This document shows, one piece after another, positions 37,119 through 43,016 of a DNA stretch of 64,000 nt. The notes under the pieces are model-generated. The model was given only the letters and a program-made list of their open reading frames with translations. It did not search any database and was not told the origin of the DNA. A program made the translations under genes and the position numbers. Position 1 is the stretch's first letter; each line of letters opens with the position of its first letter. Source of the DNA: Verrucomicrobiales bacterium (lineage in GTDB: Bacteria; Verrucomicrobiota; Verrucomicrobiia; Verrucomicrobiales; DEV007); contig JARGNG010000010.1 of the NCBI GenBank assembly GCA_029213265.1, forward strand, positions 62,001 through 126,000. Reading direction: 5' to 3'.

Positions 37119-37324
37119 GAAAGGGAGCGTCGGTGAACGCCGGGGCGGGTTTTCCCTCCAGCTGTTTTTTCTACGCACCTCCCTTTCTCAACATGGGCAA
37201 AGTCTGAAAACCACCCCTATCACTGGTTTTCCCGAGGTGTTATCAAGATTGTAAAAGTGGCGGAAATTCATGCCTCGAATCCTGATTTTTTTCGCTTATT
37301 CCGCCTTTCCGGACGTAACGGGTT

Positions 37325-37355
37325 TTGACAATTCTTCGCCCTTCGCTTCTCATAT
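37325..37355 (+). promoter_or_regulatory. Possible promoter of the superoxide dismutase gene
   Basis: A perfect -35 hexamer TTGACA at 37325-37330 is followed by TCATAT at 37350-37355, a 19-base spacer, which is longer than ideal. It lies 47 bases before the ATG. The 283-base gap upstream holds nothing else I can identify. Confidence 0.35.
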
Positions 37356-37401
37356 AGACCCACAAATTGATTCAACGAGAACCAAAACCACTTCCCGCAA
37401 A

Positions 37402-38028
37402 ATGGCACACGAACTACCTGACCTTCCCTACGCACACGACGCACTTGAGCCTCATATTGATGCCAAGACCATGGAGATCCACCATGGAAAACACCACGCG
37501 ACTTACATCGCCAATCTGAATGGCGCTCTCGAAGGACATTCTGAGTTGGAAGCCAAGTCCATCGAAGATCTTATCTCTGATCTTGGCTCGGTTCCTGAAG
37601 GAATTCGCGGAGCTGTCCGCAATAACGGTGGCGGCCACGCCAACCACTCTCTCTTCTGGAGCATTCTCGGTCCTGACGGCGGCGCTCCTTCCGGAGATCT
37701 CGCCGCAGCCATCGACAGCGCTTTCGGGTCTCTCGACGCGATGAAAGACGAATTCAAAAAGGCAGCTCTTACCCGCTTCGGTTCGGGATGGGCCTGGCTG
37801 GGAGTCAAGGATGACGGCACGCTTGCGATCACGAGCACACCGAATCAGGACAATCCAATCATGGGTGAAGCCGCTGATTGCTGCGGTTGCACACCGATTC
37901 TCGGACTCGACGTTTGGGAACACGCCTACTATCTCAACTATCAGAACCGCCGCCCCGACTATGTCGACGGCTTCTGGAATGTCGTGAACTGGGACGCAGT
38001 AGCTGAGCGTTTCGCTGCTGCGAAATAG
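37402..38028 (+). CDS. Superoxide dismutase, Mn/Fe family
   Basis: A 208-residue Fe/Mn superoxide dismutase. Metal ligands are H27 ([14 protein letters not shown]), H82 ([11 protein letters not shown]), D170 and H174 ([12 protein letters not shown]). The GGGHANHS sequence favours manganese over iron, but metal choice is not certain from sequence. It removes superoxide in the cytoplasm. A Cys-rich insert DCCGC (159-163) lies just before the third ligand. ATG 37402 yields the standard start ([19 protein letters not shown]); the longer frame from 37270 does not look coding. It stands alone with a strong terminator. Confidence 0.96.
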
Positions 38029-38058: not shown

Positions 38059-38092
38059 GGGGGCGAATCGTAGACGATTTGCCCCCTTTTTT
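38059..38092 (+). terminator. Rho-independent terminator of the superoxide dismutase gene
   Basis: Arms 38059-38070 and 38075-38086 (GGGGGCGAATCG against CGATTTGCCCCC, with one G-T pair) close a TAGA loop and are followed by six T. Confidence 0.92.
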
Positions 38093-38463
38093 GCCTACGA
38101 TTGCGAGTTGGGTTATCGAAATTCCGAGAAGTCTTGGTATTCAACATTACTGAATCTTTTTCTTCCCCGTTTGGCGGGAGAAATGCTGGTTGTATATTTC
38201 TGAGCGGAAAAAGTGAAAAAAATGGCAAATTAGTCTTGAACGACCACTACATGTTGTGCATTCTATCAACCCGCTACCAAGATATGGTGTTTTTCACGTA
38301 ATTTCGGTTAGCGCGTAAATCTCCCGTTTTTCTGAAAATTTGACCAAAATCCGCCACTGGAGAGGGAAAATTTGTGATATTCAGGAAGTTTACGAAACTT
38401 AGAGAATCATTCTCGACCTACCCGTAATCCAACACATAAAACCATCCTAACGCCCCTCGATCT
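38093..38463 (+). other. AT-rich intergenic region ahead of nrdB
   Basis: The 371 bases between the sod terminator and nrdB are clearly more AT-rich than the genes. I see no convincing coding sequence or RNA gene; a 66-codon frame at 38101-38301 has no recognisable features. The last 80 bases contain two adjacent dyads, described separately. Confidence 0.6.
38386..38414 (+). promoter_or_regulatory. Two adjacent inverted repeats upstream of nrdB
   Basis: AAGTTT-ACG-AAACTT (38386-38400) is followed directly by GAGAAT-C-ATTCTC (38402-38414), ending 49 bases before the nrdB ATG. The second has the 1-base-spaced layout of a Fur/PerR-type box (compare TGATAATNATTATCA, 10 of 14 positions agree counting flanks). 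No NrdR-box pair was recognised. Regulator identity is inference. Confidence 0.4.
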
Positions 38464-39546
38464 ATGGACAAAACATTCAAAATCGGTGATCGCACTTTCG
38501 TGCTCGATCAGGACAAAGCTGAAGAAGCATTTGCAGCCAAAAAAGTAATCAACGGCCGTGAGACAGAAGCTTTTAACCTTCTTCCTCTCAAATATACCTG
38601 GGCCTACGACATCTATCGGACGATGAAGGCGAACCACTGGGAGCCGGAAGACATCCAGATGCAGCGCGATATCGAGCAGTGGCAAGGAACCGAACTTTCC
38701 GACAGTGAGCGTTGGATTATCCGGATGGGAATCGGTTATTTCTCCGCGGCAGAGGGCATTGTCGGAGACAACATTCTTCACGTGATTCGCGAAAAGGTGA
38801 CGGCTCCGGAGCTCAAACTCGTTCTGGGACGTCATGCGCATGAGGAAAACATTCACGCGGACTCCCTTCTCTACATGATCAGCAGTCTCGGAATCAATCC
38901 GCATGAGTGCGAAGCCATGTTTGAGCAGATCCCCACGATCAAGCGTAAGAATGAGTTCGTCACCCGCGTCTCTCACGCCGTTCGCCGCGACATGGATCTC
39001 AACGATCCGGAAAACAAGAAGCTCTTCGCAAAGAACCTCTTCCTTTTTGGACAGTGCATGGAGGGAACCCAGTTCTACGGCCTCTTCGGAATGATCCTGA
39101 GCCTCTATCGCCAGAACAAGTTCCCCGGCATCGGACAAATGTTCCGCTACACCTTGCGCGACGAATCGAATCACATCGAGCTGCTCCGCAATCTTTTCAT
39201 GGATCTCATTGGAGAAAACATGGAAATCTGGACCGCTGAATTCAAACAGGAGCTCGTCGATACCATGGCCGAAGCAGTCCGCCTGGAGAAAGAATTTATT
39301 CAGGATTGTCTCCCCGTCAGCTCGGTGGGATTGAACTGCGAAGAGTTCTTCCAGTATATCGACTTCATTGCTGACCGCCGCCTCGAAGGCGTTGGTTTGA
39401 ACCCGATCAATTTCGGTGTTCAGAATCCTTTTCCATGGCTTGCCGAGATGATGGATCTGCGCAAGGAGCAGAACTTCTTTGAAGGCAAAGTCACCGAGTA
39501 TCAGAAATCTTCGTCTCTTGTTATGGGCGACGACGACGACCTCTAG
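38464..39546 (+). CDS. nrdB: Ribonucleotide reductase small subunit, class Ic-like residues
   Basis: A 360-residue R2 protein of the ferritin-like fold; with NrdA it reduces ribonucleotides to deoxyribonucleotides. Candidate metal ligands are E97, E128, H131, E200, E234 and H237. Spacing matches E. coli R2 exactly (D84 to E115 is 31 residues, as E97 to E128; E204 to E238 is 34, as E200 to E234). By this alignment the first ligand is Glu rather than Asp, and the radical tyrosine (E. coli Y122) is L135 in ENIHADSLLYM. Both changes mark class Ic R2 proteins, in which a Mn(IV)/Fe(III) centre replaces the tyrosyl radical, first described in Chlamydia. nrdA follows after 203 bases. Confidence 0.95.
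   Translation: MDKTFKIGDRTFVLDQDKAEEAFAAKKVINGRETEAFNLLPLKYTWAYDIYRTMKANHWEPEDIQMQRDIEQWQGTELSDSERWIIRMGIGYFSAAEGIVGDNILHVIREKVTAPELKLVLGRHAHEENIHADSLLYMISSLGINPHECEAMFEQIPTIKRKNEFVTRVSHAVRRDMDLNDPENKKLFAKNLFLFGQCMEGTQFYGLFGMILSLYRQNKFPGIGQMFRYTLRDESNHIELLRNLFMDLIGENMEIWTAEFKQELVDTMAEAVRLEKEFIQDCLPVSSVGLNCEEFFQYIDFIADRRLEGVGLNPINFGVQNPFPWLAEMMDLRKEQNFFEGKVTEYQKSSSLVMGDDDDL

Positions 39547-39749: not shown

Positions 39750-43016
<3,267 letters not shown>

Follow-up and report, generated by a model that had tools for sequence, protein, structure and literature searches.

A leucine-type class Ic ribonucleotide reductase small subunit in a Verrucomicrobiales genome and its relatives in several phyla

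Which oxidant starts ribonucleotide reduction when the small (R2) subunit of a class I ribonucleotide reductase (RNR) has no tyrosine at its radical site? The question is raised by an nrdB gene in a 64,000-nucleotide stretch of a Verrucomicrobiales genome (GCA_029213265.1, contig JARGNG010000010.1, positions 62,001 to 126,000), which as a whole is called the window here. The gene (38464..39546, on the + strand, as are all window features given below) starts with ATG and encodes a 360-residue protein that matches PF00268 (E = 9.8e-70) and scores over the cut-off of NCBIfam NF005550. The original prediction held this NrdB to be a class Ic enzyme that uses Mn/Fe and has Leu instead of the Phe of Chlamydia. 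On its ligands, second shell, redox relay, tree position and nearest structures the protein is class Ic (NrdBzc) by every published sequence criterion tested, while the use of Mn/Fe is what we soundly infer from the Chlamydia trachomatis enzyme.

Metal ligands and radical site of the window NrdB

Alignment places the first metal ligand at Glu97 (38752..38754), opposite Glu89 of C. trachomatis R2 and at the position of Asp84 of Escherichia coli. The other ligands are Glu128 (E120 in C. trachomatis), His131 (H123; 38854..38856), Glu200 (E193; 39061..39063), Glu234 (E227) and His237 (H230; 39172..39174). Two of them are directly preceded by second-shell residues, Glu127 (E119), whose codon lies with that of Glu128 at 38842..38847 (numbering as in PMC6370689, Tables 3 and 4), and Asp233 (D226), which shares 39160..39165 with Glu234. 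Leu135 (38866..38868) occupies the position of Tyr122 of E. coli and Phe127 of C. trachomatis. The six ligands and Leu135 stand where the original prediction had put them. The claim that the ligand spacings are identical to those of E. coli R2 fails at one interval: the window protein has 31-3-69-34-3, and the numbering in PMC6370689 Table 3 gives 31-3-86-34-3 for E. coli and 31-3-70-34-3 for C. trachomatis, so that only the His131-to-Glu200 distance departs and the other four intervals match.

The closest solved protein is C. trachomatis R2 (PDB 1syy; E = 8.4e-82 in phmmer), and the two sequences align without a gap from E97 to beyond Y137, pairing E97 with E89, E128 with E120, H131 with H123, L135 with F127 and Y137 with Y129. 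Since the Chlamydia F127Y mutant (PDB 2ani) has its Tyr in the L135 column, this column is the radical site. Tyr137 as a resident of that site is excluded by the same alignment.

Near the C terminus, Tyr346 (39499..39501) is the counterpart of C. trachomatis Tyr338, which we take to be the inter-subunit tyrosine. Trp59 (38638..38640) and Tyr229 (39148..39150) align with Trp51 and Tyr222, the redox relay residues of the chlamydial protein (PMC4118035). An AlphaFold model reached a mean predicted local distance difference test (pLDDT) score of 73.9 from only 12 alignment rows; Trp59 and Tyr346 were not judged from it because residues 25-63 and 331-360 score <50.

Class Ic was defined by Phe, Leu or Val at the tyrosine site in a 2011 review (PMC3267527), and the same three residues are the RNRdb criterion applied in PMC6370689, in agreement with the definition on which the original prediction relied. 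The window NrdB has Leu135 at this site, the ligand set E-E-H-E-E-H, and a Glu and an Asp preceding ligands 2 and 5, respectively; W59, Y229 and Y346 stand in the alignment for Trp51, Tyr222 and Tyr338. Compared by definition, it carries the whole published signature of the RNRdb NrdBzc Leu variants (PMC6370689, PMC3267527), and the Leu, which is present as predicted, is no novelty. Class Ia has Asp as first ligand and a radical Tyr, where this protein has Glu97 and Leu135. Class Id (NrdBi) keeps the radical-site Tyr and has Cys or Ser before ligand 2, the enzyme listed as If (Cyano SP R2) has Asp there (PMC6370689 Table 4), and the window protein has Leu135 and Glu127. In class Ie carboxylate ligands 2, 4 and 5 are replaced (PMC6370689); all three are Glu here.

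With C. trachomatis R2c (PDB 1syy, 4d8f, 4m1i) the window NrdB shares the six ligands, the second-shell Glu and Asp, the Trp/Tyr relay, 40-42% identity and the same side of the tree. It differs in having Leu for Phe, in H124, H126, D133, Q203 and T230, which are neighbors of ligands in sequence, and in gene order, which is nrdB-nrdA here and nrdA-nrdB in C. trachomatis (PMC3019208). The next nearest solved protein, PDB 6y2n, is also Phe-type and has the same six ligands and second shell (34-38% identity), but in the tree it clusters with members of the same group that have Tyr/Asp. The class Id NrdBi proteins of Flavobacterium johnsoniae and Leeuwenhoekiella blandensis resemble the window protein in their Glu first ligand and metal-centered oxidant, whereas they keep the Tyr, have a Cys/Ser second shell and are dimanganese enzymes.

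Distribution and phylogeny of the Leu-type R2

Named relatives were represented by the best 80 of 558 matches, one of the two search patterns admitting only Leu or Phe in the radical position. One survey covered 288 genomes of the window's phylum, Verrucomicrobiota (95 with PF00268; one of 99 loci, L099, had no R2 open reading frame [ORF]). Four more were made in the phylum or class of a center genome known by its record title: 246 genomes of the phylum of a Planctomycetaceae metagenome-assembled genome (MAG; 36 with a match, loci of 30 read); 148 of the phylum of Roseithermus (50 with a match, loci of 30 read), which is Rhodothermota at NCBI and presumably Bacteroidota in GTDB; 151 from Armatimonadota, the phylum of a Fimbriimonadaceae MAG (18 with a match); and 149 from Thermoleophilia, the class to which Solirubrobacter belongs (14 with a match). 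The 284 ORF hits gave 264 distinct rows, which together with the window protein and three references formed a pooled alignment of 268 rows, the window protein standing in it twice (P0001, L001).

In 267 of the 268 rows both ligand 1 and the radical site were readable, as Glu/Leu in 165, Glu/Phe in 36 (two references included), Asp/Tyr in 65 and Gln/Leu in one, a degenerate paralogue. A Glu first ligand was paired with Leu or Phe in 201 of 201 rows and an Asp first ligand with Tyr in 65 of 65. Six of the Glu/Phe rows, all from Thermoleophilia, are only 16-23% identical, have Asp in the second shell and may be misaligned; they look like another family, which we take to be akin to the R2-like ligand-binding oxidases (R2lox). 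All 162 rows >60% identical to the window NrdB (which is counted twice) carry Leu135. Leu is therefore a fixed trait of this clade, beyond what chance would give, and goes together with the Glu first ligand. Among 161 Leu-clade rows, Tyr229 and Asp233 are conserved in all and Trp59 and Tyr346 in 160 each, the misses being gaps. The clade also has ligand neighbors of its own: H124 for Q116 of C. trachomatis, D133 for H125, Q203 for F196 and T230 for I223 are fixed, and H126 for F118 is found in 98%.

The Verrucomicrobiota survey yielded 100 R2 rows, of which 65, with that of the window among them, are Glu/Leu; Asp/Tyr accounts for 22, Glu/Phe for 12, and one is partial. Among the 30 loci read in the Planctomycetota-centered survey there were 9 Phe-type rows, and 3 genomes were Leu-type. 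Leu rows were found in Verrucomicrobiota, Armatimonadota, Actinomycetota and Rhodothermota and, going by MAG names, in Planctomycetota and Bacteroidota; cultured bacteria that carry a Leu-type gene include Pelagicoccus sp. SDUM812005 and Roseithermus sacchariphilus. Since several of these phyla lie outside the Planctomycetota-Verrucomicrobiota-Chlamydiota (PVC) superphylum, Leu at the radical site is not a PVC-specific trait; that the class extends across the PVC superphylum, as had been proposed, is true but too narrow.

In the R2 proteins of viral contigs (best 80 of 402 matches) a Glu first ligand is accompanied by Val in 67, by Phe in 4 and by Ile in 4, and Asp by Tyr in 4, one protein being unread; the top match is 42% identical to the window NrdB. 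The four Ile proteins (among L304-L383) fall outside the Phe, Leu or Val of the class Ic definitions in PMC3267527 and PMC6370689. Carriage of the Leu clade by phages or plasmids was considered and rejected, all 2455 matching phage records and all 364 matching plasmid records being <60% identical.

A first tree of 104 rows chosen from the 268 set three Tyr rows beside the Leu clade, with long branches (distant rows such as the degenerate paralogue and NrdF-like ones) as the cause. For a second tree 22 of the 104 rows were removed and near-copies thinned to 69 rows, and the ligand and radical-site columns were left out; a third, of 82 rows, gained 19 of the 80 viral rows and lost six distant TyrE rows. 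The Leu rows form one clade (100/99) in the 69-row tree, and a 100/99 branch sets the other Tyr rows apart from the group that holds this clade together with Chlamydia R2, 6y2n and the Phe rows. The window NrdB therefore groups with C. trachomatis R2, on a branch of the Leu clade's own, even with the trait columns removed. The 82-row tree shows the same grouping, joined by the viral Val and Ile types.

Tyr/Asp enzymes are nested in the Chlamydia-side group beside 6y2n, namely seven rows of the Planctomycetota survey (L204-L210, with second-shell Glu) and four viral ones. Either the radical Tyr would have been regained in that branch or it would have been lost more than once. Approximately unbiased (AU) tests, for groups named post hoc, were borderline and are given no weight here: p = 0.047 when the Leu and Phe rows made up one side from which the nested Tyr rows were excluded, and p = 0.044 when this was done for the Phe rows alone. 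The trees are unrooted and compatible with either direction of the Tyr change. A mixture of Tyr and non-Tyr proteins is likewise on record for the NrdABz group (PMC6370689 Table 2). One Leu-type NrdB from a Planctomycetaceae MAG (L130, on a 6.7-kb contig) lies inside a Verrucomicrobiota clade (99/93), through recent transfer or a mis-binned contig.

Proposed oxidant and its alternatives

The nrdB gene is directly followed by nrdA (39750..43016), which encodes a catalytic subunit of 1088 residues with a barrel domain and TTYYLR and CEAC motifs; its best PDB match is 5im3 (E = 9e-296). NrdA has one clear ATP cone (residues 163-249), three ATP-cone stretches appearing only at a loose limit (E up to 10); tandem ATP cones have been described in C. 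trachomatis and Pseudomonas aeruginosa (PMC3267527). The genome (5.87 Mb, 182 contigs, 93.5% complete) contains one PF00268 match and one PF02867 alpha barrel gene, this nrdA, and no match to NrdD (PF13597) was found in it at that completeness. Also present are one NrdR and, from three matches, two genes of the Nramp type.

We regard the window NrdB, the sole R2 found in this genome, as most likely a radical-initiating, class Ic-type subunit in which Mn fills site 1, Fe fills site 2 and the oxidant is metal-centered. The metal identity, oxidation states and activation route are carried over by analogy from C. trachomatis R2c, in which Mn occupies site 1 and Fe site 2, activation by O2 or H2O2 goes through Mn(IV)/Fe(IV), an electron enters via Tyr222/Trp51 and the oxidant is stored as Mn(IV)/Fe(III) (PMC8463856, PMC4118035, PMC11883743). 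The Mn/Fe site of the window protein would react with O2 or H2O2 and be activated via Mn(IV)/Fe(IV), with an extra electron delivered by way of Tyr229/Trp59 and Mn(IV)/Fe(III) as the product. This center, rather than a tyrosyl radical, would serve as the reversible one-electron oxidant, and the oxidation would be passed via Trp59/Tyr346 to the tyrosine pair of NrdA and then to the active-site cysteine. Leu135 would fill the place of the former radical residue and be inert.

Several points weigh against this interpretation. Because Tyr/Asp enzymes nest within the Chlamydia-side group, membership in the group alone is no proof of a metal-centered oxidant, and a Glu first ligand alone does not make a class Ic enzyme, since a class Id-like R2 in the window's own genus (L303) combines it with Tyr. 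The distinct second shell of the Leu clade could shift metal preference. A PDB sequence search returned no solved Leu-clade structure, its best match being Chlamydia R2, and no biochemical assay or metal test of a Leu-type R2 was found in the literature examined. Another RNR could also be missing from the assembly, because the genome is only 93.5% complete.

One idea built on this second shell is that the Leu-type R2s form a lineage of their own, spread over several phyla, in which two extra histidines (H124 and H126) with D133, Q203 and T230 tune the site to another metal pairing or activation route than in Chlamydia; we consider this unlikely, and if it were true, class Ic, whose present definition turns on one residue, would comprise two kinds of enzyme. 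The same peculiarity could be read as Ic-like ligands around a dimanganese oxidant, given that class Id also combines a Glu first ligand with a metal-centered oxidant (PMC6370689 Table 4; PMC6754362), but this seems quite improbable. A touch less probable still is a diiron cofactor that either gives rise to a short-lived radical elsewhere in the protein or acts itself as an Fe(IV)/Fe(III) oxidant: C. trachomatis R2 was first isolated as a diiron protein and Fe is able to occupy both sites, yet high activity was obtained only with Mn/Fe (PMC4118035), and the window protein has no Tyr at the radical site, Y137 being the counterpart of Tyr129.

That Y137 or another shifted residue might act as the radical tyrosine of a class Ia enzyme gains some appeal from its presence in all 160 Leu-clade and all 27 Phe-clade rows compared. 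The gap-free alignment from H131 on, with Leu135 at the site and Y137 at Tyr129, the absence of the class Ia Asp first ligand, and a diverged Leu-type row with His at 137 (L081) make it very doubtful. There is hardly any chance that the protein is an R2lox rather than an RNR subunit. R2lox proteins share the Glu first ligand and a Mn/Fe site but are distinguished from R2c by Ala in place of Phe197 and an unconserved Tyr222 (PMC4118035); the window NrdB has F204 and Y229 at these positions and retains the C-terminal Tyr346 tail, and five NCBIfam R2lox models give it 21-52 bits against cut-offs of 194-346. Its gene also precedes nrdA directly, and NrdA is encoded in the fetched flank of 71 of 80 named loci. 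The Mn/Fe class Ic subunit stays the preferred reading.

Genomic context, diverged relatives and significance

A candidate pair of NrdR boxes (38244..38290), with GTG ends 31 bp apart by eye, lies upstream of nrdB, and the box-like dyads are partly kept in the nearest relatives. The two boxes that NrdR occupies are separated by some three turns of the DNA helix (PMC9110341). Pair scores of at least 24 were reached in 24 of 50 relatives (23 with 31- to 32-bp spacing) versus 0 of 50 shuffles, where 50 of 80 upstream regions had been hand-picked, the consensus came from the same promoters and the shuffles were mononucleotide; the window pair scores 27, its spacing being registered by the scorer as 33, and the distant relatives L147, L169 and L170 score only 17-18. 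Single boxes did no better than shuffles, with four matches to the NrdR-box consensus in the window and as many in 11 of 100 shuffles. The pair would point to ordinary, putative RNR regulation.

The superoxide dismutase gene directly upstream (37270-38028) was rejected as a partner: a terminator-like hairpin (38059..38086; 8 such sites in the region, 6.1 expected) separates it from nrdB, and a homologue occurs in 4 of 80 named flanks, some of which are short. Among the best 80 of 558 matches, the closest named relative sharing the gene neighborhood is a Verrucomicrobiales MAG (JARGNI01, L100; 86%), whose locus (G288:C115) agrees in contig number and coordinates with one listed under the window's genus (G994:C115), so that the verrucomicrobial host of the original prediction stands.

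Some relatives encode two NrdB proteins in tandem, one a normal Leu-type protein and the other diverged. The diverged copy of Persicirhabdus sediminis (L300:1799-3013; G299:C8) has E97Q, H131R, E234V and H237R, and that of a member of the window's genus (L297:937-2049; G993) E97G, H131G and E200K; both have lost the C-terminal Tyr. Two others (L301:2203-4029 in G116, L302:4896-6143 in G206) keep the ligands and Tyr346 but carry Y229N, Y137H and F208H and have lost the NFFE motif. Such tandems recall yeast Rnr4, a metal-poor beta-prime subunit, and could form a bacterial heterodimeric R2. In one further genome of the window's genus (G1000; L298 on C77, L299 on C108) the normal and the tandem nrdB are both in pieces, through assembly errors or real breaks.

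The class Id-like protein mentioned above (L303:854-2620; G1010, 96% complete) has an ATP-cone-like stretch, a Glu first ligand, a second-shell Ser and the Tyr; it is 21% identical to the window NrdB and lies outside the 268-row pool. No Leu-type NrdB was found in this genome at 96% completeness, and the window's genus may have seen one RNR type exchanged for another.

Haloarchaea and Chlamydia were earlier filed as Phe-type class Ic (PMC3019208), and a class Ic RNR has been placed in the chlamydial ancestor (PMC9816063). As of a 2014 review, C. trachomatis R2c was the only R2 among three experimentally studied Mn/Fe proteins, the others being R2lox (PMC4118035). We recognized no description of a Verrucomicrobiota Leu-type R2 in the literature searched, with supplements and most subscription papers outside reach. 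Of note here is a uniform Leu clade in several phyla, with no solved member in the PDB search, and a genome in which no other RNR was found. The chemistry of Mn/Fe radical initiation has been worked out on one Phe-type enzyme of a pathogen. Because no other RNR was seen in this genome and the Leu clade recurs across phyla, a Leu-type enzyme would offer a direct test of whether a Glu first ligand and an inert residue at the radical site suffice to predict Mn/Fe.
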